NCBI GenBank assembly: GCA_022414725.1
Contig: CM039463.1
Location: 29,357,071-29,421,070, forward strand
Origin: Microglena sp. YARC
Taxonomy: Eukaryota > Chlorophyta > Chlorophyceae > Chlamydomonadales > Chlamydomonadaceae
DNA length: 64,000 nucleotides
Direction of reading: 5' to 3'
The notes below the pieces were generated by a model. It was not told the origin of the DNA and did no database searches. It was given only the letters and a program-made list of their open reading frames with translations. Made by a program: the position numbers and the translations under genes. Of this stretch, positions 8,929-64,000 are shown in pieces; positions within the stretch are counted from its first letter, which is position 1, and each line of letters starts with the position of its first letter.

Positions 8929-9537
8929 GTAAGACTGACGCCAAGGTAACCGCCGCTAAGGCGGCGAAGGCCGTGAAGAAGGGATTCTTCAAGAAGGAGC
9001 GCAAGCCTAGGTTCTCCGTGGTCTTCCACCGCCCTAAGACCTTGAAGCGCTCCAGGGACCCCAAGTACCCCAGGACCTCCAAGTGAGTGGGGGTGGGTGG
9101 GTGAGTAGGTAGATGAGTGGGTGGGTTGGTGGGTGAGTGCTACAGTAGTGGGGTAGACCGATGAAGAGCGAGGGACAGAAGGAAGGTTGGCTTGGCTTCA
9201 GGAAGGAAGGTTGGGTGCTTCAGCCATGGTACCATGGGTCTAGTGATTCTAAAATTTCTTGTTTATGCTACATACAAGCCAAGTGCACTCTCTGATACCA
9301 TGGCTGCGTTATTTAATTATTTTGTGTAGATTGACTGCCCTACGTCTTTCTTGGAGCGGAACTGAGTCCCCTTCCCTAGCTGCTGAAACCCAGGATCATA
9401 ATAGCCGAGGTTCTGGTTAATGGTCAACAACGTGTGTATTTGGCATACTGACTTGTGTGTTTGTGTGCTTGGGCTCGAAGTCTGGTTGTTAAGCGTTACG
9501 TTTGAATGGCACACACATACACACACATCCCTCCCCC

Positions 9538-9585
<48 letters not shown>

Positions 9586-12500
9586 TACACACACACACAT
9601 ACGCATTCACACACATACCCACACACCCACACATACACACACACATCCCCCATCCCCTTTTGTTTTTTTCTATCCCACCCCACCCCACCCCACCCCACCC
9701 CACCCTACCCCACTTTTAATTCATTCCCAGATATGCACCCCCACCCACTCCACATTCAACCACCCTTCCCTCCCTCCCCAAACATGCACACACTAAACGT
9801 ACGAAAACACACGCAAACCCACCCCACCCCACGGCATGCACAGTGCCAGCCAGCACTCACACACAAGATGGACCAGCACCCGCACAAACTTAACCCGCAA
9901 CACACACACACATCCTGCACACCTTCTCACACATGACCTCCACCCCCCCTTGCACACACGCACACACACTAACCCACACCAAACCACGGCATGCACAGGG
10001 CTGGCAAGCACTCACACACAAGATGGAACAGCATCCGCACAAACTTAACCCTTAACACACACACACACTTCCTGCACACGCTCACACACGCGACCCCCAT
10101 CCCCCATGCACTTACACACACACACTTCCTGCCCACATACACGCACGACCCCCTCCCCCCATGCACACACACTTAACCTGCAACACACACCCACATTTCC
10201 TAGACACCCTCACACGCACGACCCCCATTCCCCCCGCACTTACCCACACTAAACCACATCACCCCATGGCATGCACAGTGCCGGCAAGCACTCCAAGATG
10301 GACCAGCATGCTGTCCTCAAGTACCCCTTGACCACTGAGTCCGCCATGAAGAAGATCGAGGACAACAACACCCTGGTAGGCAGAGCCTTTTTTCCGTTTC
10401 AGAGATGGGTCTTTTGTGTGTGTTTGTGTGTGTGTGTGGGGGGGGGGGGGGGGGGGCAGAAAGTCTGTGTGTGTGTGTGAGCGCATACGACAACAACATC
10501 CTGGTAGGCGCTGGGGGGAAGCTAGCCCGGGGTTAGCCAGCCGGGGGTTGGGTTTACAGTTTAAAGGGTTTAGGGGCTTAAGAGGGTTAGGGTTTAAGGG
10601 TAATTGGTTACCCCCGGGCTGGCAACCTCCGAGCTAGCTTCCCCCCTCCCTGGTAGGCAGAACATTTTTTCCGTTTCAGAAAGGGTTTGTGTGGTGGTGG
10701 GTGGGTGGGTGAATGTGTTTGTGGGTGGGGGGGCAGGAAGTCTGCGCGTGAGTGTGAGCGCATGGGGAGTGGGGGTCGTGTGTGTGAGCGTGTGCAGGAA
10801 GGGGTCCGGTAGCGATCAGGAATTTGGTTTCTTTCAAGGTTGGGCTCCTGGTAGCGATTTGGGTAGGCGACCCGCAAGACTGAACTGGGGGTTCAGGGGG
10901 TGGGGCCGAGTTTGGGTCTCATGGTAGCGGAAGCTTTGGCTGAAACAGGGTCCCAGGCAGCAATCGCTACTGGTAGAGGAAAAAGTCCTCTGCAGTGTTG
11001 CAAGCGACGCGGACAATTGGCGGAGTGAGTTGGCAACGGAACGACAGGTGGCACCGATGGAGCTGACCGAAGCCAGCTAGTTATGAGACAGTTGGCTGAC
11101 GTTTCAGGCTTTAATCTTGTGGGTTGGATGAACGGATAATGCAGTGAATCTGGGGTTCCCGCCCACCAGGAGGGGGGGCTCCGGCAACAATCTCTGCTGG
11201 TAGGCCCTAGGATTCTTATCTGGGTAATCTTATGCTTGGTTAGGGTGGTGGTGTATTGGGTTTGGGTCATTATTCGGTGCAGTTTGGGTCGTTGCCAGGG
11301 TTTGGGGCTGAGTGGTGCTTAGATGGATTGTTGTGTAGGGTGTTGGTTGGTTGTAGGATAGGTTTGTTGTATAGGGTGTTGGATGCATAGGGTTCTAGGT
11401 GGTGGCTGGTCCTAGGATCGGTGTATAGGATAGGGTGTTGTTACTCACCTAACATATTAGATTGTCTCATTGTTGGGTAGATAGGGATAGGTTGTAGGAT
11501 AGGGTGCTGGTCGGTTCTAGGGTAAGTAAGTTGGCTAGGGTGTCATCATCATCATCATCATCATCACCACCATTCATCACAACCACCATCATCACCATCA
11601 TCACCACCATTCATCATCATCACCACCATTCATCACCATCATCATCATCATTATCAAAGTCACAACCATAAACAAGAAGGGCGCATGTTCATGCAAACAC
11701 CACAGTTTCTTTTTTGGGCTACTCATGGCAGCTTCCAGCCAGTTCCATTAGGCAGCCACTGGGTCAAACCTGGAGCTTGCAGCTGCGTTGGAACACCAGT
11801 CATCTGAGCTTCCAGGCGCACTAGCTAGCTTAAGGTTTAGCTCAAGGGCGAGGAGAGGGAGCTGCCTAGAAGCTGCTACGGATAGCCGCCAAAGTCAGTG
11901 ATTGCGATGTGACAGAATTATTGAGACCCGGAGGGAATCTACGAACTCTCTTTTTTTATTGCAGATCAGGATTCCTTGTGAAATTCCAGCATTATGTTGT
12001 ACTAGTCCCATGCAGGGTACTACTTCTTGCCAAATTGGTCAGCGCTTTTAAGCGCACAAACGTCGAATTGGTCAGCGCTTTAGGTGCCAAAAGCGCAAAA
12101 ACTTAGCGCTGCGCCCATTGAAAGTTGAAAAAACTGCGTGAAACGCTGAGAGGGGCTTAAGAAGTGCCGCGCTGCCGCGCGCGCTTAGCAGAACCCTGGT
12201 CCCATGTTGTTACGACAACATGTAAGCTTATCAACTCGTGGTATTAAGTGTTACTTGACCTGGGCAAAAAATTGCATTTTTTTTTAAATGTCTTTTTACA
12301 CCAAATCGAGTACTCATTTGGATTCCTTGCAAAATGCATTGATGATGTGCACTACTTTGATGGTGGTGATGTGACATAACAACTGAGACGCGGAGGGAGT
12401 CTACCATGGAAAAATAAGAGAACACGTGCATACGTGAACTTGGTTACAAAGCTTCAGCCAGCAATATCTTTCTGCTCGCCGTCTTCGGCAGTAAAATCAA

Positions 12501-14614
12501 AACCCAGGAAAAAAGTGAACGCAGACAATTGTTTTTCTTTTAATTTTTGCGGACCTTTAAGTAATAGTAACAGTGTGTCATGCCTTTTTGTTTCATGCCA
12601 TGTTGCAATGGTGCTTTATGAATGAAGGTAGATAGCTTATCGTACAAAAATGGAAATTTGACTTTCATACAGTGTTTCATTTTTTGACGACGCGTCGCCA
12701 TTCCGTAGAATGCTACACCCCCCGACCCCCGATATTGGGACGCGCTGCCCCCCGACCCCCCAGGCTCCGCGCTCCGCCATGCGATGGCTACGCAACTATC
12801 CTGAAATCAGGGTTGAGTAGCCCAAGTAGCTACTCAACCTGGACTACAGAAATATGAAATAAAAAACACTGCTTTCACATGCCTTGCCATGGGGCGTGAG
12901 GTTGGAGGAATCTTTCCGTTTGCTTGCACTGGGGAATGGATATTGTGGGTAATGCTTTCGCAAAACACTACTGTTTCTGAGCTCGGACTGCCGTGCGACG
13001 AAACATGGGACATGTATTTGGAGCACAGTGTCAAGACATGCTCTGGTCAATTAAGCCTGGGATTATCTAGCAATTGTTTCATGTTGGAGCCCCCCCTTCT
13101 GGGGTGCAGGAGCCCCCAGGGTTACCGCTTTGTCCTAGTATCTGTCTGTCTGTCACGTTCCAACCCTAGGCCTCGCTGACCCACTCTCCACCCTTCCAAA
13201 CATTGGGCAGCTCGAACCTCGCTGCCTATTTCGGACCACACGCCAATTTCTCACTTACGACGCGCCTCGGTATTCATGTTTTGTTTTGATTGCATGGTCT
13301 ATGAGCTACAAGGCTGCTCTCCGACTGCAGGCAGAGAAAACATAGGGGATATAAACACTGTTTGTGTGTAGGTCTGTTACAGTCTAGGGGTATAGGGATA
13401 TGGTACAGTCCAGTGCTAATCGAATAAGGTTGGTGTTTTTGTTTTGTTTTGATTGCATGGTCTATGAGCCATCAGTCTGCTCTCATCTATTTGCAAGTGG
13501 AGTAAACATGGGTAGCATAAACACTTCTTAAGTGTGCCATCATGTTATCTGGCTGTGAACACACACTCTTAGGTGCGAGCAACAGCGCAATAGTCAGCGC
13601 TGTCAGTTAGCCCAGCTCCAACACCTTGTTCCCACCTCTATCCTCACTCCCACTCTCATACTGCCCCACCACCACCACGCAGGCACTCTCACCCTCACCC
13701 CCCCACACACACTCACACTCTCACCCCACTCTCACACTCACCCCCCACCCCCGCCCACCCACTCTCACCCCCCCCACACACACACCCACTCTCACCCTTT
13801 CTCTTGTTTTCATGTCCAGGTCTTCATCGTTGACTTGAAGGCTTCCAAGAAGCAGATCAGGGACTCCGTGCAGCGTATGTACGACATCCAGACCAAGAAG
13901 ATCAACACCCTGATCAGGTAAGTTCTGACGATGGTGGTCATGATGGTTCTGATATTCATGATGATGGTGGTAAGGATGGTTCTGGTGATCACGATGATGA
14001 TTACATTTTTCTTTTTGCCCTACTGGACTCCGCGTGTCACGCGGCTTGGCAACTGTTTGGCTACCTTGTGAACCTGATATGCAGGAGGTACATTGTTGGT
14101 GGTGCTGGAGACTGTAATGGTGGTGCACGGGGAGCAGGGTGTTCATGAGGTGTGTGTGTGGTGGTGGGGGGGGGGGGGGGGGGGGGGAGGTATCTTCAGC
14201 CTCAAAAGACAGGCAAACAAGCTGACAGACAGACAGGGAAACGAACAGACAGAGAAAGAAACCCAAGCAGCAAGCAAGCAGACCAACCCACTAACTAACT
14301 AACTAACTAACACATCCTATGTCTGATGGTCTCAAGAAGGCTTATATCCGCCTTCCTGGAGACTTCTAACTAGCTAACTACTTAACTAACCAACTCACTC
14401 ACTCACTCACTCACTCACACTTCCCATGTCTCATGCCTGATGGACTCAAAAAGGCTTATGTCCGCCTTACCGAGATTCCTGAAGACTCCTAACTAACCAA
14501 CTCACTTACTCACTCTTTCCGTGTCTCAGGCCTGATGGACTCAAGAAGGCTTATGTCCGCCTTACCGCTGACTACGATGCTTTGGACGTTGCCAACAAGA
14601 TTGGCATCATCTAA
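8929..14614 (+). CDS. RPL23A: 60S ribosomal protein L23a (uL23), spliced; N-terminal exon unresolved
   Basis: Four coding exons join in frame: 8,929-9,082, 10,279-10,375, 13,820-13,917 and 14,530-14,614. All introns are GT-AG and phases agree at each junction. The 143 residues recovered include [58 protein letters not shown] and the conserved C-terminus [13 protein letters not shown] before TAA. uL23 is a large-subunit protein at the nascent-chain exit tunnel, binding 23S/28S rRNA and docking the signal recognition particle. Typical eukaryotic lengths are about 145-156, so only a few N-terminal residues are missing. The first exon with the ATG must be tiny and lie upstream of 8,929, and I could not place it. 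Introns measure 1,196, 3,444 and 612 bp and hold degenerate copies of the gene's own exon edges. An RPL23A identity is secure. Confidence 0.95.
9083..10278 (+). repeat. RPL23A intron: CA-rich, with two degenerate copies of the next exon's start
   Basis: Copies at 9,831-9,893 and 9,986-10,050 repeat the acceptor and start of the exon at 10,279. They carry GGCATGCACAG, then GTGCCAGCCAGCACT or GGCTGGCAAGCACT, then AAGATGGACCAGCA or AAGATGGAACAGCA. Both are interrupted by CACACA insertions that break the frame. C-runs and (CA)n fill 9,530-9,650, and (CCCCA)n lies at 9,675-9,712. The donor side has repeated GTGAGTGGGTGGG. Confidence 0.85.
10376..10800 (+). repeat. RPL23A intron: degenerate copies of the preceding exon's end and donor
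   Basis: The functional junction ACAACACCCTG/GTAGGCAG at 10,365-10,383 is followed by ACAACATCCTGGTAGGCGC at about 10,490-10,510 and by CCCTGGTAGGCAGAACATTT at about 10,646-10,666. The downstream TTTTTTCCGTTTCAGA and AAGTCTG..GTGTGAGCGCAT segments are repeated too. Spacing is about 120-160 bp. Spacers contain (GT)n(G)n. Confidence 0.85.
11015..11200 (+). repeat. Dispersed repeat, also at 35.56-35.73 kb
   Basis: Shares GGAGTGA, CAGGTGGCA, AGCTAGTTA, GTTGGCTGACGT and GGAGGGGGGGCTCCG-type blocks with 35,563-35,728 in the same order. It has no coding signal. The shared GGCTGACGT..CGGGCTT block and a GGGGGGGCTCC end suggest a common mobile origin of unknown class. Confidence 0.6.
11300..11660. 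repeat. TAGGATAGGGTG tandem repeats and a (CAT)n tract
   Basis: About 11,300-11,530 repeats TAGGATAGGGTGTTGG and GGTTCTAGG variants. About 11,545-11,660 is (ATC)n with CACCATTC interruptions. Both lie within the large RPL23A intron. Confidence 0.75.
11702..11898. mobile_element. MITE family A copy (Mutator-like)
   Basis: The ends are inverted copies. The left end reads TTTTTTGGGCTACTCATGGC then AGCTTCCAG. The reverse complement of the right end reads TTTGGCGGCTATCCGTAGC then AGCTTCTAGGCAGCTCC. The whole matches the complete copy at 44,270-44,469, which has a 10-bp duplication. No ORF. Confidence 0.65.
12013..12198. mobile_element. hAT-type MITE (family B)
   Basis: The element is 186 bp with short terminal inverted repeats (CAGGGTACTACT and AGCAGAACCCTG). 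An exact 8-bp target-site duplication GTCCCATG lies at 12,005-12,012 and 12,199-12,206. CAGGG termini and an 8-bp duplication are typical of hAT transposons. The interior has repeated TTGGTCAGCGCTTT blocks. Inverted relatives lie at 38,796-38,989 and 22,746-22,899. Confidence 0.9.
12430..12530 (+). repeat. Dispersed repeat, also at 21.41-21.51 kb
   Basis: Shares CCAGCCAGCAAT, a GTCTWCKGCAGTAAAAT block and an AAAANTRAAC end with 21,425-21,505. No coding content recognised. Confidence 0.55.
12870..13010 (+). repeat. Dispersed repeat, also at 24.38-24.62 kb
   Basis: Shares CATGCCTYGCCA, GGAAYCTTYCCGTTYGCTT, GCACTGGGGRATGG and GAGCTCGGACT with 24,396-24,612 in the same order. In the 24-kb copy the CTTGCACTGGGGGATGG part is itself triplicated with GGCTTGGCTT spacers. 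Confidence 0.65.
13270..13540 (+). repeat. Tandem pair, about 165 bp apart
   Basis: TTTTGATTGCATGGTCTATGAGC occurs at 13,285 and again at 13,447, each followed by CTGCTCTC, a GAAAACATRGG or GTAAACATGGG block and ATAAACACT. It lies inside the large RPL23A intron. Confidence 0.7.
14316..14368 (+). pseudogene. RPL23A pseudo-exon copy 1 of the last exon
   Basis: TGATGGTCTCAAGAAGGCTT and ATCCGCCTT match the start of the last exon at 14,530. It ends in a stop (GACTTCTAA). The acceptor AG is missing: CCTATGTCTGATGG replaces CTCAG/GCCTGATGG. Spacers are (CTAA)n and (CTCA)n. Confidence 0.9.
14421..14494 (+). pseudogene. RPL23A pseudo-exon copy 2 of the last exon
   Basis: CCTGATGGACTCAAAAAGGC followed by TTATGTCCGCCTTACCG repeats the first part of the exon at 14,530, then diverges into an in-frame stop (GACTCCTAA). 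The acceptor is changed from TCTCAGGCC to TCTCATGCC, so the AG is lost by one base. Confidence 0.92.
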
Positions 14615-15891: not shown

Positions 15892-16464
15892 GGTTATCGG
15901 CCCGACCGCTACCCGCAGACAGCGCCCCTGCGCCCGTGCCAAGTGGATCTTCAGCCCTGCACAAGGTGACAGTTTTCCCTCAGACTAGCTCGACGGCTTG
16001 AGTACTGCTTTTGGCCCTGGATTGTCTACGTATTCACGTGAGAAATCTAACCTGCGCTGCCTCGCCTACTGCCCACACAACTCTCCCGTTGTCTCTACCA
16101 TCCGTCACCGACGAAACGTAGACGCAGTCCAGGAGTCTGAGTAGATCTTCGACGTGAGTTGTGAACTCATCAGATCACACACAGCGTTGCGCAATCCCAC
16201 AAGGATTGCTTGTGCCACGGAGTATCAACCCTGCACACCCTCGAAGACCCCCCCCCCCCAGCTTCCTGCTACCATCTCCACCATTACAGACCAACAAGAC
16301 CCATTTGGTTCCCCTTTTGTTATCAACACTCCATCACCTCTACCTCCGAACCGCACACCAAAGACTGAAACCAGACAAGCTTCACACCCGGATTACCCAC
16401 AGGCCGGTTTATTAATCCGGTGTGAAGATCAAGACCCCAAGACCCCAGCGCCGCGACAGACACC

Positions 16465-18615
16465 ATGGCAACTCCAGCCAAGCCCCCTGCACTCGTCTTC
16501 GACGGCACACCTGCTGTCCCATGGCACAAGTTTGGACCCTTCCTCCTCCGCCATCTCAGGTCCCACCCGGGGTGCATCTCCGTTGCCATTGAGGCAGCGA
16601 AGGACGTTGTCCCCGCAAATGAGCCAGCAGATGCCGACGGATACCCGCTGGAGGAGTCTCACTACCCGAATGTGGACAATGCTAATGCAACTATTGCGGC
16701 TCGTGCTGTTCCCTACCCAATCAACATGGTAAAGAACGCCGTTGCACTGAATGAGATCCTCAAGCATTGTTTTGAACCCATTCAACAGGCCATCATAGCC
16801 CACTCTAACGTTGCTGCTAAAGCCTACAGGTTTCTCAAGACCTCCTATGGAGAGAGGAACTCTGACCTTGAGACAGGGGCAGTGAGATCCATGTATAACC
16901 TCAGCATGACAACTACTGAGCCACTACAAACCTACCTCTCTCGCAGTTATGAACTCTATACATTGCTTCCCCAAGTGAATGGGGTCAGCAACACCTCCAT
17001 CCCTGCATTCCTCAGCATTATTGTTCAAGGACTTACACCTCGTCCAGAATACAATGGATTCAGGTTTTCCTTTCACAACTGTGTATGCCCTGATTTTGCC
17101 TCTTTTCAGACCCAGATCATCAGGCACCAGGTATCTAACCAGATCTCTGACTCCAGCATCTCTCCAGAAGAGACTGAGCACATGGCAGCTGCTGTTTTCC
17201 AAGGCCGCCCACGGAAGGACCGTCTCCCATCTACCCAGATGACATGCTGGAACTGCAATGGCTATGGGCACAACTCAACCACTTGCCCTAGCCCCCTCAC
17301 AGAGCTGAAGTACAGGCCCCCACCATTCTCTACATCTGCCCGTCGAGGATCCTCATCACCCCCCAAGGATGCAGCCAAGAGGTCATCCAGCAAGTCCAAG
17401 TCTCCTAGGAGAGACAGCAGAGCAGCTGCCAGGGACACCAGAGGACGACGTGACAGACGTGGGCATGCCCATGTTGCAGATGATGACTGTTCCACCTCCC
17501 AGTCCACAACGGACAATGAGGATGAGCACAACTTCATGGCCTTGACTTCTGATGGCCCACAGCCCCTCCAGTTTGCAGACTCAAGAGGCAAGTCCACACA
17601 CCTGTCTGACCCACATGCTCCTATGGATGACACTGCTTTCCCTGGACCCACACCTAATCCTGATGCTTGCCATAGTAGGAGAGATGAGTCTATGCCAGCC
17701 CTAGTTTCAAGTGATGGCACCTCTGATGATGATGATGATAAGAGTACTCATGCCCAGTTCCAGACAGCCCTCCTGACAGAATGGATTTTAGACTGTGCAG
17801 CCCACTCCCACTGCACCAGTAACCCGTCCATCTTGCATGACATTCAGGATCTCCCCCAGCCTATTAGCCTCCACCTGGCAGACCTTGGAGCATCACCAGT
17901 GCTCTGCCTGCAGAAGGGGAAAGCCAACATCAGGGGTCACCTTGGATCCATGATCACACTCAACGATGTGCTCCTTGCTCCACCCTTGACTGTGGTCAAC
18001 ATACTCAGTGTGCATGCAGCACACAAACTCTGTCCCAACCTCCAACTCCATGCATCTAGTGCTGCTGCTACACTCTCCATCCCAACTGCCAAGGGCCCCA
18101 AGACTATTCTCTTCTGCCCTAAACAGAATGGCCTCTACATCACTAGCACCTCTAAGATCCCTCCCTCTTCCCCATACCCCTGTAATACCCTCCCTTCTGT
18201 CATCATGATGGTCACCCGGCAAGACCCACAGAACATTTGCTACAATGATGATGCTGCTGCCAGTTGCACCATTCCCCATGACACTGCCAGCAGCTCCAGC
18301 AGCCTACCAGACCTAGTTTCTGCAGATGGTGAGGATGCCATGCCTGACCTTGTTCACCCCATCATGCCCTCCATGATCCAGTCAGACAATGGGGGGGAAT
18401 TCTCACCACACCACCATGCCATGCTGGAAGATGACTTGTATACCACATCATCCCATGACTTCATCCCAGATACTGATTACTCCACAGCCCCTAGCCAGCA
18501 GATGCCCACTGTTCCCCATGATGAGCTGTGTAACCTGACAGAAGCAGAAGCCAGAAGAGAGATGGACTCCTGCTGGACCAAGCCAGAACCAGCTATGAAA
18601 GTCCTATCCCATTGA
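16465..18615 (+). CDS. Copia-like Gag-protease polyprotein, 716 aa
   Basis: The start ATG is in a strong context (GACACCATGGC). Gag occupies about residues 1-300 and ends in a zinc knuckle C261-X2-C264-X4-H269-X4-C274 (CWNCNGYGHNSTTC), which binds RNA during packaging. A basic Ser/Arg stretch follows (about 290-330). An aspartic protease-like domain begins with LTEWILDCAAHSHC at about 437-450 and continues to about 570. The family motif is D-S/T-G-A. Here the Asp (443) is kept but the next residues are C-A-A, so activity is doubtful. At about 636-645 IQSDNGGEF matches the second-Asp motif of integrase, yet the zinc finger and first Asp are absent. The element therefore has an internal deletion across integrase and lacks reverse transcriptase. 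Proteins from a full relative would be needed for transposition. Confidence 0.85.
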   Translation: MATPAKPPALVFDGTPAVPWHKFGPFLLRHLRSHPGCISVAIEAAKDVVPANEPADADGYPLEESHYPNVDNANATIAARAVPYPINMVKNAVALNEILKHCFEPIQQAIIAHSNVAAKAYRFLKTSYGERNSDLETGAVRSMYNLSMTTTEPLQTYLSRSYELYTLLPQVNGVSNTSIPAFLSIIVQGLTPRPEYNGFRFSFHNCVCPDFASFQTQIIRHQVSNQISDSSISPEETEHMAAAVFQGRPRKDRLPSTQMTCWNCNGYGHNSTTCPSPLTELKYRPPPFSTSARRGSSSPPKDAAKRSSSKSKSPRRDSRAAARDTRGRRDRRGHAHVADDDCSTSQSTTDNEDEHNFMALTSDGPQPLQFADSRGKSTHLSDPHAPMDDTAFPGPTPNPDACHSRRDESMPALVSSDGTSDDDDDKSTHAQFQTALLTEWILDCAAHSHCTSNPSILHDIQDLPQPISLHLADLGASPVLCLQKGKANIRGHLGSMITLNDVLLAPPLTVVNILSVHAAHKLCPNLQLHASSAAATLSIPTAKGPKTILFCPKQNGLYITSTSKIPPSSPYPCNTLPSVIMMVTRQDPQNICYNDDAAASCTIPHDTASSSSSLPDLVSADGEDAMPDLVHPIMPSMIQSDNGGEFSPHHHAMLEDDLYTTSSHDFIPDTDYSTAPSQQMPTVPHDELCNLTEAEARREMDSCWTKPEPAMKVLSH

Positions 18616-19318: not shown

Positions 19319-19901
19319 CTTAACCATAGATGACATTCTTGTTTTAGCCATGAACACTCTAGGATTAATGTGCTGCACTGTACTTCCCCATGTACTGCTG
19401 TTTTCTAGTTCTTTAGTACCTCTTTCTTAAGCTTCTACAGCATGTCTTCAATTCTCTAATTTAGGGTAATCCCAAATTATGGGGGGAATCAGTCCTATCT
19501 GACAGACATCCTGGCAGCTCCACTGGCAGCTACCTGGCAGCCTCTCCTGTGCCTCAGCCTGACTCCTAGGCTGCCATAACTCTTAAGCTTAGTCCGTAGT
19601 ATTAATAGTCTTCTCTGAGTTAAAGCTACCTTATAGATGACTTTGGAAGTATCTCAGCATATCTCTCCATCTGGATTGATTACATGAGCCAGCGGGGGAC
19701 GTCTACCTTAAAGAAGTTGCTTACAGCCAGTCAGTCCTTTATACCCCTAGTCCCTCTCGTTCCTGGCCCCTAGCAGATATTGACCTAAAGATCCCTGCCT
19801 TCAATGTGCCACACCCCTTTGGACTGTCCCAAATAATTTATTATTTACAGCTCCTCTTGCCAGCCGTTAGCATATCTAATAGCCCCGTCAGCCCTTATAC
19901 A

Positions 19902-28308: not shown

Positions 28309-28314
28309 CTGCAA

Positions 28315-28930
28315 AGGACAAACAGCGCAGGTCAGCATGAATCTATAAAAGTTCACGAGCTGTATGACGAGTGGACACGGGGACCCTGGGGCACAAGTTC
28401 GCTGCAAGGACAAACAGCGCAGGTCAGCATGAATCTATACAAGTTCACGAGCTGTATGACGAGTGGACACGGGGACCCTGGGGCACAAGTTCGCTGCAAG
28501 GACAAACAGCGCAGGTCAGCATGAATCTATAAAAGTTCACGAGCTGTATGACGAGTGGACACGGGGACCCTGGGGCACAAGTTCGCTGCAAGGACAAACA
28601 GCGCAGGTCAGCATGAATCTATAAAAGTTCACGAGCGTATGACGAGTGGACACGGGGACCCTGGGGCACAAGTTCGCTGCAAAAACAAACAGCGCAGGTC
28701 AGCATGAATCTATAAAAGTTCACGAGCTGTATGACGAGTGGACACGGGGACCCTGGGGCACAAGTTCGCTGCAAAAACAAACAGCGCAGGTCAGCATGAA
28801 TGTAAAAACGTTCACGAGCTGTATGACGAGTGCACACGGGGACGCCGGGGCACACGTTCGCTGCAAGCACAAACAGCGCAGGTCAGCATGAATGTACGAA
28901 AGTTCATGAGCTGTATGACTAGTGGAGTTT
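28315..28930 (-). repeat. Seven tandem copies of an acceptor plus exon start
   Basis: Units of about 92 bp. On the minus strand each reads TGTTTGTCCTTGCAG, then CGAACTTGTGCCCCAGGG, TCCCCGTGTCCACTCGTCAT, then ACAGCTCGTGAAC. They match the acceptor and first about 30 bases of the exon starting at 28,308, whose coding version reads CGAACGTGTGCCCCGGCG. Outer copies are more diverged. Confidence 0.88.
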
Positions 28931-35190: not shown

Positions 35191-35208
35191 CACTCTTACA
35201 ACAGAGTA

Positions 35209-51480: not shown

Positions 51481-51715
51481 TCAGCACTATGAACGAAACC
51501 ATTGCAGCGATAGCACGCAGCGCTCTAATCCAAGGAATGGAGGCGTTTACGGATTCATTCTCTGCCTGGGGGGAGACTATTCTCCGAACATATGGTCATC
51601 AATTCTTCGGGTCCTTGGGACGGGCAGATACTACCAAGCTGCGGTCTAAACATCACCGGGGCAAGGTCCTTTGCTTTCCAAGTCCTTGGTCCAAACCAAG
51701 GCGTACCTGAACAGG
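51480..51715 (+). CDS. Probable exon of unknown function with a CAG/GTGAGT donor
   Basis: An open frame from 51,489 codes for MNETIAAIARSALIQGMEA then FGSLGRADTTKL and ends with KPRRT. The next bases give GCGTACCTGAACAG/GTGAGTTGA at 51,701-51,723, an excellent donor that seeds the satellite following it. It probably joins the upstream plus-strand exons. The start codon may be internal to an exon. No domain recognised. Confidence 0.4.
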
Positions 51716-53019: not shown

Positions 53020-54019
53020 NNNNNNNNNNNNNNNNNNNNNNNNNNNNNNNNNNNNNNNNNNNNNNNNNNNNNNNNNNNNNNNNNNNNNNNNNNNNNNNNN
53101 NNNNNNNNNNNNNNNNNNNNNNNNNNNNNNNNNNNNNNNNNNNNNNNNNNNNNNNNNNNNNNNNNNNNNNNNNNNNNNNNNNNNNNNNNNNNNNNNNNNN
53201 NNNNNNNNNNNNNNNNNNNNNNNNNNNNNNNNNNNNNNNNNNNNNNNNNNNNNNNNNNNNNNNNNNNNNNNNNNNNNNNNNNNNNNNNNNNNNNNNNNNN
53301 NNNNNNNNNNNNNNNNNNNNNNNNNNNNNNNNNNNNNNNNNNNNNNNNNNNNNNNNNNNNNNNNNNNNNNNNNNNNNNNNNNNNNNNNNNNNNNNNNNNN
53401 NNNNNNNNNNNNNNNNNNNNNNNNNNNNNNNNNNNNNNNNNNNNNNNNNNNNNNNNNNNNNNNNNNNNNNNNNNNNNNNNNNNNNNNNNNNNNNNNNNNN
53501 NNNNNNNNNNNNNNNNNNNNNNNNNNNNNNNNNNNNNNNNNNNNNNNNNNNNNNNNNNNNNNNNNNNNNNNNNNNNNNNNNNNNNNNNNNNNNNNNNNNN
53601 NNNNNNNNNNNNNNNNNNNNNNNNNNNNNNNNNNNNNNNNNNNNNNNNNNNNNNNNNNNNNNNNNNNNNNNNNNNNNNNNNNNNNNNNNNNNNNNNNNNN
53701 NNNNNNNNNNNNNNNNNNNNNNNNNNNNNNNNNNNNNNNNNNNNNNNNNNNNNNNNNNNNNNNNNNNNNNNNNNNNNNNNNNNNNNNNNNNNNNNNNNNN
53801 NNNNNNNNNNNNNNNNNNNNNNNNNNNNNNNNNNNNNNNNNNNNNNNNNNNNNNNNNNNNNNNNNNNNNNNNNNNNNNNNNNNNNNNNNNNNNNNNNNNN
53901 NNNNNNNNNNNNNNNNNNNNNNNNNNNNNNNNNNNNNNNNNNNNNNNNNNNNNNNNNNNNNNNNNNNNNNNNNNNNNNNNNNNNNNNNNNNNNNNNNNNN
54001 NNNNNNNNNNNNNNNNNNN
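53020..54019. other. Assembly gap (1,000 N)
   Basis: Exactly 1,000 N, a conventional placeholder. It separates two different satellites, so its true length is unknown. Confidence 0.98.
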
Positions 54020-57000
54020 ATGGGTTAGGTAGGTTAGCGTAAGTTAGTATCCAGGAGGTAGGTTAGGTAAGTTAGTAGGTGCATGGGCGAGGTAAGTTAG
54101 GTAGGTTAGGTAGGTTAGGTAGGTCAGTTGGTTTAGGTGCGTAGGTAAGGTTAGGTAGGGTAAGGTAGGTGCATGGAGCTTGGTGGTTAGGTAGGTTAAG
54201 GTAGGTATAATAGGTTAGGTTAGTAGGTAGGTGGCATGGATAGGTTAGTTAAGGTAGGTTAGGTTATGGTAGGTTAGGTTAGCGTAGGTTAGTTAGGTTT
54301 AGGTAGTTAGGTAGGTGCATGGTCGGTAGGTATAGGTCGGTTAGGTAGTTAGGTAGCGTTAGGTATAAGGCTTGCGATGGAGGTAGTTAGGTAGGTTAGG
54401 TTATGTTAGGTTAGGTTAGTTCTAGTTAGGTTAGGTGCATGGGAGGTAGGTTAGGCTATTGGTGCACGGGTAGGTAGGTAGGTAGGTTTAGGTAGGTGTC
54501 ACGGATAGTAGGTTAGGTGGTTAGGTAGGTTAAGGTATGTTCACGGTAGGTAGGTTAGGTAGTTAGGATAAGGTTAGGTAGGTAGGTATGTGCACGGTTA
54601 GGTGGTTAGGTAGGTTAGTTCCGTAAGGTCTAGGTAGGTTAAAAGTTAGCTATGTGACGGGTAGGTAGGTTAGGTAGGTTAGGTAGTTAGGTTAGTAGGT
54701 AGGTAGGTAGGTTAGGTAGGTGGTACGTTAGCGTAGGTGCCACAGGTAGGAGGTTTTTGGTAAGGTTAGGCTAGTTAGGTAGGTTAGGTAGGTGCATGGG
54801 GAGGATAAGTTTAGTAGGTAGGTAGTTAGTAGGTTAGGTAGGTTAGGTGTTGCATGTGTAGGTAGGGTTAGGTAGGTTAGGTAGGTTAGGGTAGGTGCAT
54901 GGGTAGGTAGCGTTAGGTAGGTTAGGTAGGTTTAGGTAGGTGTATGGGAGAGGTAGTTAGGTAGGTTAGGTAGGTTTAGGTAGGTCATGGGTTGGTTAGG
55001 TTAGGTAGGTTAGGTAGGTTAGGTAGGTTAGGTAGGTTAGGTAGGTTAGTGAGGTTAGTAGTGTTAGGTAGGGCTGCCATGAGGTAGGAAGGTTAGGTAG
55101 GTAGCTAGGTTAGGTAGGTGCCATGGGCTAGGTAGGTTAGGTACGGTAGCGTAAGGTCCTAGGTTCGTGCTTATGGGTAGGTAGGTTAGGTTGTTAGGAG
55201 GTTAGGCAAGTTGCATGGTAGGTAGCGTTGGGAGGTTAAGATTTAGGTAGGTAGGTTTAGGTAGGTGCATATGGGTAGGTAAGTTAGTAGGTTAGGTAGA
55301 GGTTAGGTAGGTGCATGGGCAGGTTAGGTTAGCTAAGGTTAGCGTAGGTTAGTAGCGTAGGTCTAGCCGTTAGGTAGGTTAGGTAGGTTCAGCGAGGTGC
55401 CATGGGGAGGTAGGTTAGGTAGCGTTAGGTAGGGCATGGGGAGGAGCGTTAGGTAGGTTAGGTAGGTTAGGTACGGTTAAGTTAGTTAGGTAGGTTAGGA
55501 GGTTAGGTAGTGCATGTAGGAGTTTAGGTAGGTAGAAGGTTAGGTAGGTGTGAGGTAGGATGCATGGGGTAGTAGGTTAGGTAGGTTAGGTAGCGTTAGG
55601 TAGCGTTAGTAGCGTAGGTAGGTTAGGTATGTTAGTAGGTTAGGACGGTTAGGTAGGTGCATGGGAGGTAAGTTAGGTAGGTTAGGTAGGGTTAGGTAGG
55701 TTAGGTAGGTAGGTAGGTTAGGTAGGTTAGGTAGCGTGCATGGGTTGTAGTTAGGTAACGCGTCTAGGTAGGTTAGGTAGCGTTAGGGTAGGTTAGGTAG
55801 GTTAGCTATGTGCACGGTAGTAGTTAGGTAGGTTAGGTAGGTTAGTATGTGCCACAGGTAAGTAGGTTTGGAGTTAGGTTTAGAGTTAGGTAGGTGCATG
55901 CGTAGGTAGGTTAGGTAGGTTAGTAGGTTAGGTAGGTTAGGATAGGTTAGTAGGTTAGGTAGCGGTAGGTAGTGCATGGGGAGGTAGGTTAGGTATGTGC
56001 TGACGCGGTAGGTAGATTAGGTAGGTTAGCTAGGTTTAGTGGGGTAAGTAGGTTAGGTTATGTGCACGGTAGGAGGTTAGGTAGGTTAGGTAGGTTAGGT
56101 AGGTTAGGTAGGTTAGGTAGGTGCACGGGTAGGTAGGTTAGGTGGTTAGGTAGGTTAGGTATGTGCACGGGTAGGTAGAGTTATGGTGGTTAGGTAGGTA
56201 GGTAGTTAGGAGGTATGTGCGACGGGTAGGTAGGTTAGGTAGTTAGGTAGTTAGTAGGTTAGTAGGTTAGACTATGTGCACGATAGGTAGTTAGGTAGGT
56301 TAGGTTAGAGTTAGTAGGTTAGTAGTTAGGCTACGTTAGGTATGTTGCACAGGTTAGTAGGTATTGGTTAAGTTAGGTAGGTTAGGTAGGTTAGGTAGGT
56401 GCTACGGCGTAGGTAGGTTAGATAGGTTAGGTAGTTAGTAGGTAGTAGTTAGGTAGGTTGGTTAGGTAGGAAGTTAGAGGTAGTTAAGGTAGGTTGCATG
56501 TGTAGGTAGGTTAGGTATGGTAGTAGGTTAGGTATGTGCCATGGGTAGTAGTTAGGTTAGGTTAGGTTAGGTTAGGTAGTGTTAAGATAGGTAGTAGGTG
56601 CATGGTATTAGGAGGTTCGGTAGGCTTAGTAAGTTAGGTTAGGTGCATGGTAGGTAGGTATTAGGTAGGTTTAGGTAGGTTAGGTTGGTTAGGTAGGTGC
56701 AGAGGGAGTAGGTTAGCTAGGTATAGGTAAGGTTAGGTAGGTAGCGTAGGTTAGGTAGGTTTAGGTAGCGTGCATGGTGTAGGTAGGTTAGTAGGTTAGG
56801 TAGGTTAGTAGGTGCATGGGTAGGTGCAGGGGTAGCGTAGGTTAGGTAGGTTAGGTTAGTTAGGTAGGTGATGGTAGGTGGTAGCGCTAGGTAGGTAGGT
56901 TAGGTTAGGTTATTAGGTAGGTTAGGTTAGGTAGATGCTATGGGTAGTAGGTTAGGTAGGTTAAGGTAGGTTAAGGTAGGTGCCATCACCATACATGGTA

Positions 57001-60000
57001 GGTAGGTTAAGTAGGTTAGGTAGTTAGTAGGTTAGGGTAGGTTTAGGTAGGTTAGGTAGGTTAGGTGGTTAGGTAGGTTAGGTAGCGTTAGGTAAGGTTA
57101 GGTAGGTTAGGTAGGTTAGAAGTAGGTTAGGAGGTTAGGTAGGTTAAGGTAGGTTAGGTAGGTGCTATTGGGGAGAGGTTAGGTAGGTTAGGTAGGTTTA
57201 GGTAGGTGAGGGTAGGTTTGAGGTTAGTAGGTGCAATGCGTTGTAGGTTAGGTAGGTTAGGTAGGGTTAGGTAGGTGCATGGTAGGTTAGGTTTAGGTAG
57301 GTTAGGGTAGGTTAGGGTAGGTAGGTAGTTAGCGTAGTGTAGGTAGCGTTGCATGGGGTAGGTAGGTTAGAGGTAGTAGGTTAGCGCAGGGCATGGGAGG
57401 GTTAGGTACGGTATGTGCACGGCTAGGTAGGTTATGTAGGTTAGGTAGTTAGGTAGGTTAGAGTAGGTTAGGTAGGTTAGTATGGTTAGAGGTTAGGTAG
57501 GACGGGTAGGTAGGTTTAGTAGGTTAAGGTGTAGAGGGTAGGTATATTAGCACGGGATAAAGGTAGGTAGGTAGGTTAGTAGGTTAGGTATAGCGTTTAG
57601 ATTAGGTTAGGTAGGTTATGTCTATTAACACGGGTAGGTAGCGTTAGTTAGGTTTAGTACGTTAGGTTATGTGCCACGGTAAGATAGTTTGTAGTTAGGT
57701 AGGTTAGGTAGGTTAGGTAGCGTGCACGGGTAGTGTAGGCTTAGGTAGGGTTACGGTAGGTAGTATTGTGCACGGTAGGTAAGGTTTAGGTAGGTTAGGT
57801 AGGTTAGGTAGGTAGGTAGGTTAGGTAGGTTAGTAGTGCACCGGTAGGTAGGTTAGCTGGTTAGGTAGGTAGGTATTCGTGCAACGGTAGTAGTTAGGTC
57901 AGCGTTAGTAAGTGTTTAGTAGGTAGGTATGTGCACGGGTAGGTAGCTTAAGGTAGGTTTAGGTTAGGTTAGGTAGTTAGGTAGGTTTAGCTATTGTGCA
58001 CAGATATGGTAGGTTAGGGTGGGTAGGTAGGTTAGGTAGGTAGGTAGGTTAGTAGGTTAGCGTACGTAGTATGTGCACACGGTAGTAGGTTTTGGTAATT
58101 AGGTAGGTATAGTAGGTTAGGAGGTGCACAGGTAGGTAGGTTAGGTAGTTAAGGTAGGTTAGGTAGGTCAGGTAGTTAGAGGGTTAGGCTAGGTTAGGTT
58201 AGTTAGGTAGGTTAGTAGTGCATGTGTATGTAGGTTAGGTATGTTAGGTAGTTTGGTAGTGCATGGCGTAGTGGTTAGGTAGGTTAGGTAGGTTAGGTAG
58301 GTTAGCTACGTTAGGTTAGTGCAATGGATGGTAGGTTAGGCTAGGTTAGTAGGCGTAGGTATAATGCACGGGTAGGTAGGGTTAGGTAGGTATAGTAGGT
58401 TAGTAGTTAGGTAGTTAGGTATGCATGGTAGGTAGGTTAGGTAGGTTAGGAGGTTAGGTAGGTTAGTAAGATGCGATGAGGTAGAGTAGGTGCGGGGTAG
58501 GATAGGTTAGCTTAGGTTAGGTAGGTTAGGTAGGGTTTAGGTGGTTAGGTAGGTAGGTAGGGCATGGGTAGGTAGGCTTAAGGTAGGTTAGGTAGGTTTA
58601 GGTAGGTGCATGGGTAGGATAAGGTTATGTAGGTTAGGTAGTTAGGTAGCTTAGGTAAGGTTTAGGTTAGGTTAGCGTGGGTAGGTAGGTTAGGGTAGGT
58701 TAGGTAGGTTAGGTAGGTTAGGATAGGTTAGGTAGGTTTAGGTAGGTTAGGTAGTTAGGTAGTTAGGAGGTGCATGGGGAGGTAGGTTAGGTAGGTTAGG
58801 TAGGTTAGGTGGTAGTAGTTAGGTAGTTAGGTAGTGCATGGGGTTGGTATTAGTAAGGTTAGTGGTTAAGGTTAGTTAGGTAGCGGCATGGGTAGGGTAG
58901 GTTAGGTAAGGTTAGGGTAGGTTAGGTTAGTTTAGGTAGCGTGCCATGGGGAGGTAGGTTAGGTATGTGCACAGCTAGGTAGGTTAGGTAGGTTAGGTAG
59001 GTCAGGTAGGTTAGGTAGGTTAGGTAGGTTAGGTAGGTTAGGTAGGTTAGGTAGGTGCACGGGTAGGTAGGTTAGGTAGGTTAGGTAGGTTAGGTAGGTT
59101 AGGTAGGGTAGGTATATGCAACGGGTAGGCAGTAGGTTAGGTAGGTTTAGGTAGGTTAAGGTAGGTTAGATAGGTTTAGGTAGGTTAGGTAGGTAGGTTA
59201 GATAGGTTAGATAGGTTAGATTAGGTTAGGTAGTGCATGTGTAGGTTAGGTTAGGTAGGTTAGGTAGGTTAGGTAGGTGCATGGTAGGTAGGTTAGGTAT
59301 GTTAGGTAGTGTTAGGTATGTTAGGTAGGTTAGGTAGGTTAGGTAGGTAGGTAGGTTAGGATAGGTTAGGTAGTGCAAATGGGTTAGGTAGGTTAGGATA
59401 GTGCATGCGGTAGGTAGTTAGGCTAGGTTAGTAGGTATAGGTAGGTTAGGTAGGGTTAGGTATAGGTGCATGGGTAGTTAGTTAGGTATGTTAGGTAGGT
59501 TAGGTAGGGTTTTAGGTATTAGGATAGGTTTAGGTAGGTTAGGTAGGTTAGGTAGGTTAGGTAGTAGGTTTAGGTAGGCGCATTTGGTTGCGTGCGTGGG
59601 TTGGTAGTTAGGTAGGTTTAGGTAGCGTTGAGGTAGGTTAGTTAGGTTAGGTAGGTGCATTGGTAGGTAGGATTAGGTAGGTTAGGTAGGTTAGGTAGGT
59701 TAGTAGGTTAGGTAGGTAGGTACGTAGGTGCATATGTTGTGCATGGCGTTGTAGGTTAGGTAGGTTAGTAGGTTTAGGTAGCGTTAGGTACGTTAGTAGG
59801 TGCATGGGAGGATAGGTTAGGTAGGTTAGGTAGTTAAGGTAGGTTAGGCTAGTTAGGTAGGTTAGGTAGGTTAGGCTAGGTTAGTAGGTGCATGGGTTGG
59901 TAGGTTAGGAGTTAGTAGAGTTAGGTTAGGTTAGGTAGGTGCAGATATGTAGGTAGGTTAGGTAGTTAGTAGGTTAGTAGGTATAGGTACCGTGCATGGG

Positions 60001-60955
60001 AGGTAGGTTAGGTTTGTACACGGCTAGGTAGAGTTAGTAAGCGTTAGGTAGGTTAAAGGTAGGTTAGGGTAGTTAGGTAGGTTAGGTAGAGGACGGTAGG
60101 TTAGGTTAGGTAGGTTAGGGTAGGTTAGGTAGTTAGGGTAGGTAGTATCATGCACGGTAGTAGGTTAGGTTAGGTTTAGGTAGGTATAGATAGTTAGGTA
60201 GCCGTTAGCTAATTGTGCACGGTAGGTAGCGTTAGGTAGGTTAGGAAACGTTAGGTATGTGCACAGGTTAAGTAGGTTTGGTAGGTTAGGATAGGTTAGT
60301 AGGTTAGGTAGGCTGCCATGGGGTAGGTTTAGGTTAGGTAGTTAGTAGGTTAGTTATCAGGTAGTTAGGTAGGTTAGTAGGTTAGTAGGTTAGGTAGTGT
60401 GCATGTGTAGGGAGGTTAGGTAGTTAGTAGGTATAGTATGGTTGCATGGTAGGTAGGTTGGGTAGGTTAGGTAGGTAGGTATGTTAGGTAGTTAGGTAGA
60501 TTAGGTAGGTTAGGATTTAGGGGGTCTAGGGTAGGTTATGTAGGGCATGGCGTAGGTAGGTGGTAGGTGCATGTAGGTAGGTTAGGTTAGGTTAGTAGGT
60601 TAGTAGGTAGGTAGGTTAGTAGGTTAGGTAGGTGCATGGTAGGTAGTTAGGTAGGTTAGGTAGGTTAGGCTTAGGTTAGGTAGGTTAGGTAGGTTAGGTC
60701 AGGTTAGGTAGGTTAGTAGGTAGTAGGTAGGTAGGTAGGTTAGGTAGGTCGCATTGGTTGGTGCGTGGGTTGGTAGGTTAGGGTAGGTTAGGTAGGTTAG
60801 CGTAGTTAGGTTAGGTTAGGTAGTGCATTGGTAGGTAGGTTAAGGTAGGTTAGGTTAGGGTTAGGTAGGTTAGGTAGGTTAGGTAGGTTAGGTAGGTTAG
60901 GTAGTGGTTAGGTTACGTAGGTGCATATGTTGGTGCAGGGTTGTAGGTTAGGTCT
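54020..60955. repeat. GTTAGGTAG satellite (9-bp unit) with TGCATGGG interruptions
   Basis: GGTTAGGTAGGTTAGGTAGG arrays, broken every 40-100 bases by GTGCATGGG or GTGCACGGG. Frequent one-base indels (TAGCGTTAG, TAGTTAGG) look like uncorrected long-read errors. Each unit contains TTAG/GTAGGT. No coding. Confidence 0.93.
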
Positions 60956-62290
60956 AGGCTGCATAGGTAGGCATAGGTAGGTGCATAGGTAGGTGCATAG
61001 GTAGAGTGCAAATAGAGGTAGGTGCATAGGTAGGTGCATAGGTAGGTGCATAGGTAGGTGATAGTAGGTGCAAGTTAGGTAGGTGCATAGGTAGGTGCAT
61101 AGGTAGGTGCATAGGTAGGTGCATAGGTAGGTGCAAATAGTAGGTGCATAGGTCAGGTGCATAGTAGGTCAGTAGGTAGGTGGGCATAGTCTAGTGTGCA
61201 TAGGTTTGTGCATAGGTTAGTGCATAGGTAGGTGCATAGGTAGGTTGCATAGTGGTGCATAGGTATGGTGCATAGTGGTGCATAGGTGCGCTATTGTCGG
61301 TGCATAGGTAGGTGCATAGGTAGGTGCATAGGTAGGTGCATAGGTTGGTGCATAGGTAGGTGCATAGGTAGGTGCATAGGTAGGTGCCATAGTAGGTGCA
61401 TAATGTAGGTGCATAGGTAAGGGTTGCATAGGTAGGTGTCATAGGTAGGTGCATAGGTAGGTGCATAGCGTAGGTAGCATAGGAGTTGCATAGGTAAGGT
61501 GCATAGGTGTCATAGGTAGTGTGCATAGGTAGGTGCATAGTAGGCGTGCATAGGTAGGTGCATAGGTAGGTGCATAGGTAGGTGCATAGGTAGGTGCATA
61601 GGCTAGTGCTAAGGTAGGTGCATTAGGTAGCGTGCCATACGGTAGGTTGCATAGGTAGGTGCATAGTAGGGGTGCAAGGTACGCGGTTGCAAATAGGTAG
61701 GATGCAAGGTTAGTGCATAGGGTAGGCGGTGCTTAGGTAGGTGCATAGGTAGGTGCATAGGTAGGTGCATAGTAGGTGCATAGGTAGGTGCATAGGAAGT
61801 GCATAGTAGGTGCATAGGTTGGATGCATAGCCGTAGGTGCATAGGTAGGTGCATAGGTAGGGCATAGGTAGTGCATAGGATAGGTGTAATAGGTTGTCAA
61901 TAAGGTAGGTGCATAGGTGGTGCATTTAGGTTAGGTGCATTAGGTAGGTGCCATAGGTAGAGTGCATAGGTAGGTGCATAGGTAGCCGTGCCAAGGTAGG
62001 TGACATAGGTAGGCATAGTAGGTGCATAGGAGGTGCCAAGGTAGGTGCATAGGAGTTGCATTCAGGTTGGTGCATTAGGTAGCGTGCATAGTAGGTGATA
62101 CTTAGGTGCTTAGGTAGGTCATAGGTAGTGCATAGTAGCGTGCATAGGTAGGTGGGCAATAGGTAGGTGCAAGGTAGGGACATAGGTAGTGCATAGGTAG
62201 TGCGCATAGGTAGGTGCATAGGTAGGTGCATAGTAGGTGCATAGGTTGATGCATGGGTTAATTGGTTGGCAGGTAAGTGCATGGGTAGGT
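60956..62290. repeat. GGTGCATAGGTA satellite (12-bp unit)
   Basis: TGCATAGGTAGGTGCATAGG repeated about 100 times with indel noise, adjoining the 9-bp satellite. Minus-strand frames (Met-His-Leu-Pro repeats) are not genes. Confidence 0.93.
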
Positions 62291-62299
62291 AGGTTTCCA

Positions 62300-63000
62300 A
62301 TTTCAATTCCAATTCCCGACCTACCATGCATAGGTTGAGTGGCCTGGGCACAGGCAGGCCCCCAGGGCATGTCAGCTAGAAGGCCAGGCTGAACCGAACC
62401 TTCCTTGAAACCGATGACAGCCTGGGCCGGGTACCTTAGTCAATATATGCCTTACTTAAATATATCAGGTGTTAGCTGGGGTTTGCGTAGAGAACTACCT
62501 TCTGGGGTGAAATACCTTTCACGACGTCACGAAAAATGGTAAATGATGTTTCCACATACCATGATTGAATAGGTCGAGTGCGCCTGGGCACAGCAGGCCC
62601 CAGCGGCCTGCCAGGTAGGAGGCCAGGCTGACCAAGAATCTGCCTCAATATATAACTAATAATACATAATAGCAAATAATAAGTACCAATAATAAAAGAT
62701 TCTTACCCAACATTACCCATGATAATAGGTGAGTCGCCCTGGGCCACAGGCAAGCCCCCAGCGGGCCTTGTTCAGTAGAAGCAGGCTGACCAGAATCTGA
62801 CTCAAACTGCCAATATATAACTCATGAATAATAATGAATACATTAATAAGCAATAATAATAAGTTACAATTAATAAAAGACTCTGCCACATACCATGAAT
62901 CGGATTGAGTGGCCTTGGCACAGGCAAGCCTCATGGACCTTCAGGTAGGAGGCCAGGCTGGGCCAGAATGTGTCGTTGCTTTTCCCACCTGTTTCAGCAC
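62300..63000 (-). repeat. Four degenerate copies of an exon end plus donor
   Basis: On the minus strand, copies near 62,330-62,400, 62,560-62,640, 62,720-62,800 and 62,890-62,975 repeat CAGCCTGGCCTCCTACCTG, GGCCTGCCTGTGCCCAGGC and CAATCCGATTCATGGTATGT. They match the end of the exon at 63,225. ATGG/GTATGT-like donors are kept in most. Confidence 0.85.
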
Positions 63001-63219: not shown

Positions 63220-63463
63220 ATGAATAGGTGAGAGGCCTGGGCACAGGCAGGCCCAGCGCCTAAAGGTAGAAAGCCAGGCTTGACCGGATCCTTCCTCCGA
63301 GACCTTGGACAGCCACCTCGGACCTAAAGTACAAAAAGCCTTGACTGGGCCGAAGTAGTAGACGGGTACGATTGCCATCTGCATCACTGTCCAGGCAATT
63401 GCGGGCAAAGCCTTTCCTACCCAACAGCTTTACACGCTCCTTGTATTCGTCAAGCATGAACAT
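63220..63463 (-). CDS. Exon of unknown function, junction arrays on both sides
   Basis: The acceptor TGTGTGTGCAG precedes ATGTTCATGCTTGACGAATA at 63,463. The frame codes for MFMLDEYKERVKLLGRKGFA and stays open to about 63,260; the last part (SGQAWLSTFRRWACLCPG, ending SPIHW at GTAAGT) is open only in a second frame. A small intron or a frameshift lies between, so it may be two exons. No family recognised. Copies of its start lie at 63,575-64,000 and copies of its end at 62,300-63,000. Confidence 0.45.
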
Positions 63464-63519
63464 CTGCACACACATTTGGTTTGGTTTAATTTGGATTGGT
63501 TCGTTTTTATTTTGTTTGT

Positions 63520-64000
63520 TTCAACAGTCTTGATTGGCCAAAGTAATAGACAGGTACGATTCCCTACTCACTCTCCAGGCAATCCGGCAATGCCTTTCCA
63601 CCCAACAGCTTTACACGCTCCTTTATCGTCAAGCATGAACATCTGCATACACTTTTGGTTTGGTTTGTTTTTGGTCTTTGGTTTGGTTTGGTTTGGTTTT
63701 GGTCGGTTTTATTTGGTTCGGTTGGTTTCGTGTTGTTTTGTTATAATTTGGTTCGGTTCAAAGAACCTTTCCCACCCAACAGCTTCACACGCTCCTTGAA
63801 CTCATCAAGCATGAACACCTGCATGCACAGTTTTTTGTTTGTTTTCAAAGCCTTTCTTACCCAACAGCTTCACACACTCCTTGTATTTGTCAAGCATGAA
63901 TATCTGCATGCATGCACAATTTTTCTACTTCTTTTTCGAACCCTTTCTTACCCAACAGCATTCACACACTCCTTGTCTTTGCAGCATGAATATCTGCATG
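63520..64000 (-). repeat. Four copies of an acceptor plus exon start
   Basis: On the minus strand TGCAGATGTTCATGCTTGAC, GAGCGTGTAAAGCTGTTGGG and GGAAAGGC recur near 63,640, 63,818, 63,905 and 63,990. The first also keeps CCGGATTGCCTGGAGAG and GTCTATTACTTTGGCCAA. Spacers are GGTTTGGTTT. The array continues past the window. Confidence 0.9.

Follow-up and report, generated by a model that had tools for sequence, protein, structure and literature searches.

Partial exon copies beside splice junctions in a Microglena genome: probable products of tandem duplication not aimed at exon edges

The window, a 64,000-nucleotide stretch of the Microglena sp. YARC genome (C2:29,357,071–29,421,070; source assembly of 568 Mb in 2,390 contigs), contained two genes, encoding ribosomal protein L23A (RPL23A, uL23) and a GT31-type galactosyltransferase, whose splice junctions were accompanied by copies of their own exon edges. 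Copies of an acceptor with the start of its exon lay upstream of the exon, and copies of an exon end with its donor lay downstream. This layout, described in an earlier note on the same DNA, was confirmed at both genes by sequence reading, self-blastn and Smith–Waterman alignment. The earlier note had ascribed it to a process seeded at splice junctions. Junction seeding is not needed to explain the layout, and ordinary tandem duplication accounts for most of it. The junction arrays were probably produced by very frequent tandem duplication that lands anywhere in the genome and is not aimed at exon edges.

The RPL23A gene was located on the plus strand at 8.9–14.6 kb, and its joined exons matched PF03939 and PF00276. 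The exons and junction copies of this locus were as follows.

8929–9082, plus strand: RPL23A exon, N-terminal part; translation ends ...RTSK; within the PF03939/PF00276 match of the joined exons; the same stretch occurs in EukProt P0003
9807–10249, plus strand: tandem copies of the acceptor and start of the 10,279 exon; 9807–10121 against 9962–10249, 74% (self-blastn); period 155 by Tandem Repeats Finder (TRF); three copies, all upstream
10279–10375, plus strand: RPL23A exon, by sequence reading and the Pfam match of the joined exons
10648–10763, plus strand: one copy of the 10,279-exon end, donor and following intron; 10371–10486 against 10648–10763, 79% (self-blastn)
13820–13917, plus strand: RPL23A exon, by sequence reading
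14282–14472, plus strand: two upstream copies of the acceptor and start of the last exon; 14282–14472 against 14389–14567, 76% (self-blastn)
14530–14614, plus strand: last RPL23A exon, by sequence reading and translation

The acceptor copies before the exon at 14,530 were found at ~14,323–14,364 and 14,432–14,472. The exons at 8,929 and 13,820 had no junction-spanning copy above threshold when Smith–Waterman scores were compared with genomic controls.

The galactosyltransferase gene was located on the minus strand at 36–42.7 kb, and its joined exons matched PF01762 (Galactosyl_T, E = 1.9e-9). Its features are listed in the direction of transcription.

42477–42688, minus strand: GT31-like exon 1; a start codon and a stretch resembling a signal peptide, by eye; PF01762 through the joined exons
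42790–43769, minus strand: array of acceptor and exon-start copies upstream of the 42,688 exon; six copies above threshold, all upstream (self-blastn)
41923–42099, minus strand: one copy of the exon-1 end, donor (42,477) and following intron; 41923–42099 against 42350–42537, 80% (self-blastn)
41319–41490, minus strand: GT31-like exon 2, by sequence reading; PF01762 through the joined exons
41542–41853, minus strand: ~101-bp units of the acceptor and first ~50 bases of exon 2; three upstream copies (TRF 41441–41853, period 101)
40565–40712, minus strand: one copy of the exon-2 end and donor (41,319); 40565–40712 against 41287–41434, 90% (self-blastn)
37981–38106, minus strand: GT31-like exon 3, WAVAQTPQYDFIIKADEF...YWGR, by sequence reading; its start had earlier been placed at 38,124
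38111–38444, minus strand: repeats around the exon-3 acceptor; 38111–38326 against 38241–38444, 76% (self-blastn); three upstream copies
36829–37932, minus strand: downstream array of the exon-3 end and donor; ten copies above threshold
36106–36255, minus strand: GT31-like exon 4, by sequence reading; PF01762 through the joined exons
36362–36697, minus strand: two upstream copies of the acceptor and start of exon 4; 36192–36523 against 36362–36696, 79% (self-blastn)
35900–35959, minus strand: copy of the exon-4 end and donor; 35900–35959 against 36083–36141, 78% (self-blastn); a second copy lies further downstream

The layout was also surveyed beyond the window in seven genes with 65 junctions (34 acceptors and 31 donors), namely five CCT/Cpn60 genes and two other RPL23A genes. 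The CCT/Cpn60 genes were taken from about ten multi-exon genes, grouped by the analysts from the 64 matches of a PF00118 genome search. Manual placement of the exon borders relied on the ends of the Pfam matches and on GT/AG signals; a few borders could be misplaced by 1–2 bases. For each junction, a 60-base window was compared by alignment with the surrounding 2.5 kb and with 60 random genome segments. The local match was better than all 60 controls at 35 of the 65 junctions (18/34 acceptors and 17/31 donors), which bears out the earlier claim of a genome-wide pattern, and 26 of the 52 junctions free of low complexity gave the same result. The best match of the duplicated junctions lay upstream for 18/18 acceptors and downstream for 14/17 donors.

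When a longer probe was applied to nine genes, the two of the window included, 137 junction-spanning copies were recovered by Smith–Waterman alignment against genomic controls, and 133 of these lay on the expected side. Acceptor copies were found 74 times upstream and 3 times downstream, and donor copies 59 times downstream and once upstream; the window's two genes contributed 34 copies, all on the expected side. Arrays contained up to 10 copies above threshold. The copies extended more than 60 bases into the exon in 80 of 137 cases, 30–60 bases in 28, and less than 30 bases in 29, of which 18 were re-alignments landing elsewhere with negative values. A fixed exon reach of 30–60 bases was thus not seen.

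Among the three RPL23A paralogs, exon 3 had an array in one (L006) and a full-exon copy in another (L005), exon-4 copies above threshold occurred in the window gene only, and the exon-2 acceptor copies were partly common to the paralogs. Since some duplications were confined to one paralog and those at exon 2 were partly common, the duplication process looks recurrent. The paralog-specific array at L006:6230–7045 was made up, by eye, of units of ~85 bp, many of which carried a CAG-like acceptor and the first ~14 bases of exon 3. Whole-exon copies were thus present at exon 3 of L005 and, by appearance, at 26,566–27,116 and 27,440–28,240 of the window, so that the copies are not of edges only.

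The duplicated state of junctions was compared with that of other sequence. The duplicated share was 107 of 175 for unmasked intron points and 35 of 65 for junctions (Fisher p = 0.38), and a second intron sample gave 118/210 (Fisher p = 0.78 against junctions). Random genome windows were duplicated in 273 of 600 cases, and a per-locus Mann–Whitney comparison with gene introns gave p = 0.27. Along a profile from −600 in the intron to +60 in the exon, the duplicated fraction ranged over 0.42–0.68 and showed no peak at the junction; further into the exon, at +90, it fell to 0.29. By self-blastn, direct local duplicates covered 39.1% of the unmasked bases (59,451/152,000) of 20 random 10-kb stretches and inverted ones 1.75%; direct local duplicates covered 32.4% of the unmasked bases in the window. 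This excess of adjacent, same-orientation copies, together with the 133 of 137 junction copies on the expected side, is as plain tandem duplication predicts. Locality, orientation, direction, genome-wide density, a profile without a junction peak, and AG and GT decay similar to that of neighbouring positions were all observed.

The direction of the copies follows from geometry. A tandem duplication across an acceptor must leave its partial copy upstream, and one across a donor must leave it downstream, so the observed asymmetry is forced. In the proposed mechanism, local same-strand tandem duplication would occur frequently throughout the genome, and some of the copies would then expand into arrays and decay neutrally. 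Where a duplicated segment crossed an exon border, an intact exon would remain and the gene would survive, with the truncated copy falling upstream of the acceptor or downstream of the donor by geometry alone. Duplications within exons would presumably be removed by selection. Because exons are conserved and recognisable, such a genome-wide process looks like a set of junction-seeded arrays. Slippage during replication, unequal exchange and the repair of breaks are candidate molecular causes. Repair-mediated duplication would leave copies apart from their template, with microhomology or filler at the breakpoints; among 34 young two-copy duplications, the match exceeded the period by at least 7 bases in 22 and by 3 bases or fewer in 12, a signal that a partial third copy would give as well.

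A comparison of exon edges with exon middles had been proposed as a check on junction seeding. Exon middles were duplicated in 9 of 27 cases against 35 of 65 edges (Fisher p = 0.11). In simulations of uniform duplication, edges exceeded middles in 6/6 settings of one set, 7/7 of another, and three of four of a third, the remaining one being about equal; the direction of the copies was mostly or only as seen in the genome in every setting where it was counted. Tandem duplication cannot place a fragment from the middle of an exon alone in an intron, and therefore neither the asymmetry nor the edge-to-middle count can separate seeding from chance. Applied to the sampled genes, the check proved not to be diagnostic.

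If splicing-coupled transcription, R-loops or base composition made exon borders preferred sites of duplication, this would be a weak form of the seeding idea; it is considered unlikely as the explanation of the arrays. Raw coverage at junctions was no higher than in introns and about the same as in random genome windows, the profile had no junction peak, and the excess of edges over middles arose in most of the uniform simulations as well, so that junction seeding in the form put forward by the earlier note was not upheld. Nearest-copy distances, mostly ~70–215 bp in the sampled genes and read with a 100-base probe that hides shorter units, had medians of 178 at junctions, 148 in introns and 108 in the random genome; junctions and introns were similar, if only just (Kolmogorov–Smirnov (KS) p = 0.054).

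Several points nevertheless weigh against duplication without any aim. Random intron points over-sample arrays, and hence a weighting was used that counts every array once; the duplicated fraction was then 0.256 in introns and 0.51 (33/65) at junctions, and bootstrapping over genes put the difference at 0.075–0.389. Under simulated uniform duplication with decay, junctions stood at 0.75–1.2 times the weighted intron value, which amounts to near equality. When intron windows matching other fetched loci, which were duplicated in 13 of 53 cases, were dropped, the weighted intron value rose to 0.338 and was still below that of junctions. The simulations also placed raw intron coverage above that of junctions (0.60 against 0.39; without decay, 0.82–0.84 against 0.52–0.59), whereas the two were nearly equal in the data. 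Between junctions and random genome windows, nearest-copy distances differed (KS p = 3e-5). For three of the 17 duplicated donors the best match lay on the side not expected; two of these matches were weak and one belonged to a whole-exon copy. Furthermore, the wider survey comprised only seven genes, of which four form two paralog pairs and two are paralogs of the window's RPL23A gene, with borders set by hand from sequence alone.

The loci compared for dispersed repeats made up ~0.06% of the genome; further such repeats are probably hidden in the intron windows, which would narrow the gap between junctions and introns more. Dilution by inserted repeats accounts for part of the gap, perhaps not for all of it. 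A weak junction bias of up to ~1.5–2 fold is possible. A further-reaching proposal, to which little credence is given, is that borders are duplicated ~1.5–2 times more per independent event than neighbouring intron sequence and that the arrays serve as a nursery of intron growth, new introns and in-frame mini-exons.

The CCT1 gene provides a case in which such a nursery might be seen. In the paralog L031, six copies of the exon end, spaced by (CAA)n, and two copies of the exon start made up most of an intron of 1.8 kb. That this intron is mostly copied from the exon edges on either side of it bears out the earlier statement that introns are lengthened by copying. This intron follows ...KDDLR (L031:7397–9203) and is absent from the paralog L032 (L032:5722–6204), by either gain or loss.

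The copies might also be functional alternative exons or splice sites under selection, although this is judged improbable. In the GT31 exon-3-end array, the 45-base exon part was stop-free in eight of ten copies and also gap-free in seven, and both AG and GT were retained in two full-length copies and in a third with one gap; from their sequence, these in-frame units at 36.8–37.9 kb are candidate cassette exons. AG was retained in 55 of 77 acceptor copies and GT in 41 of 60 donor copies, and the copies thus supply candidate decoy splice sites, as the earlier note had proposed. The splice dinucleotides were, however, retained no better than neighbouring positions (match of 0.825 against 0.786 for acceptors and 0.825 against 0.841 for donors). 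The mismatch rates at the three codon positions in 102 copies were 0.151, 0.135 and 0.205, only a mild excess at position 3, and the rate on the intron side of all 137 copies was 0.190; this codon pattern is expected if copies drift while the real exon is conserved. An assembly artefact, arising where a noisy long-read assembly merged or multiplied repeated reads, is very improbable. A 1-kb run of N lies beside indel-rich repeats at 51.7–53 kb, and frameshift-like slips were noticed by eye in some CCT exons, but the mean identity of copies to the real junction was 0.70–0.94 per junction (6–30% divergence), far beyond assembly error, and the arrays differed between paralogs. Introners or other mobile elements carrying splice sites would likewise place repeated units with splice sites in introns, and are scarcely credible here, since the units copy the adjacent exon edge. 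A genome search with the GT31 exon-3 edge gave nine matches (the exon and eight copies), all on the same strand within 1.3 kb, with none elsewhere among the scored candidates. The corresponding search with a CCT1 edge gave six local matches (the exon and five copies) and one in the paralogous exon, again among scored candidates. Because the search tool ignores very common words and scores the best candidates only, weaker copies at a distance may have escaped it. Tandem duplication that is not aimed at exon edges thus remains the preferred explanation.

Single duplications across a splice site are already known, and the scale found here is unusual beside the published cases compared below. In the potato RdRp gene, a tandem duplication over an acceptor made a new intron, as proven by RNA (Ma et al. 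2016, PMC4974935). The geometry is the same, a partial exon lying upstream of a second acceptor; the potato case is one event, whereas the present genome has many events in nine genes, known from sequence alone. In the Rogers model, described in the same paper, introns are gained by duplication of an exonic AGGT segment. The creation of new splice-site pairs by tandem duplication is shared with that model, and the present segments instead cross existing splice sites. In vertebrates, repair-mediated duplication through capture of proximal DNA produces short, closely linked copies, in which splice sites and exons may be included (Pace et al. 2009, PMC2671141); duplications within 50 bp were set aside in that study as tandem, whereas those described here are tandem and have been amplified to arrays. 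For human genes lying in segmental duplications, the share with internal tandem repeats that alter gene structure was put at ~7% (De Grassi and Ciccarelli 2009, PMC2812944). These are likewise tandem arrays inside genes, and about half of the 65 sampled junctions are affected in the present genome. Direct repeats of 4–30 bp near intron ends have been described (Rogers and Bendich 2025, PMC11782384), which also lie at splice borders, whereas whole junctions are copied in tandem here. No report of splice-junction duplication at such a scale was found in the titles and abstract openings of Creative Commons-licensed papers, among at most the best 20 of up to 4,035 matches per search.

The genome offers many natural substrates at differing stages of decay, with paralogs that differ in the junctions copied. 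It would allow intron growth, intron gain and the choice made by the spliceosome among several near-identical neighbouring sites to be measured in one organism. The results suggest that gene prediction in such genomes would often err. They also illustrate that a striking edge-only pattern can arise from geometry alone.

Three further arrays in the window had been listed as examples of the same layout, in addition to the RPL23A and GT31 exons, at which it was verified.

28278–28926, strand not assigned: 92-bp tandem array, 7.1 copies (TRF); no exon demonstrated by reading
51690–53019, strand not assigned: 40-bp tandem array adjoining the assembly gap (self-blastn); no exon demonstrated by reading
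63406–64000, minus strand: array of a putative exon start (self-blastn)

The layout was present at the putative exon at 63.4 kb, where 63,406–63,468 had same-strand copies near 63,588, 63,766, 63,846 and 63,939 by self-blastn. The arrays at 28.3 and 51.7 kb were real tandem arrays, for which reading of the sequence did not confirm a link to an exon. The array at 51.7 kb adjoined the 1-kb run of N (~53,020–54,019) and was rich in small indels by eye. An ~8-kb G-rich satellite of TAGGTAGGTGCA-like units, with a GC skew of 0.70–0.84, occupied ~54,000–62,300 and also adjoined the 1-kb gap. The apparent whole exons at 26,566–27,116 and 27,440–28,240 were in tandem copies, with a 233-bp unit and a ~150-bp core present three times, respectively; two translated units from these arrays gave no Pfam match.

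The best database relatives of RPL23A were mostly green algal, and the top one, from EukProt, was 97% identical; by its sequence it reads like a second gene copy in the same genome. When compared by eye, EukProt P0001 resembled the paralog L005 and EukProt P0003 the RPL23A gene of the window. The model P0003 omits 13 residues of the exon at 13,820–13,917, as though an inner donor, GTACGA, were used, which may reflect a prediction error or alternative splicing.

An Rfam scan over the window gave no matches at gathering score, and an ARAGORN scan of the window gave no tRNA. A dispersed repeat at 29,872–30,056, 35,208–35,425, 38,605–38,770 and 43,973–44,182, whose head looks tRNA-like by eye, is possibly a short interspersed element (SINE). 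An inverted pair of ~1.1 kb (19,897–21,084 against 33,480–34,508, 88–89% identity by self-blastn) is probably a dispersed element. Pieces of retrotransposon polyprotein were located at 16,426–18,615 on the plus strand and 3,702–4,607 on the minus strand (Pol_BBD, E = 3.8e-7; SH3_retrovirus, E = 1.5e-22), and from this domain set they are presumably of the copia type.

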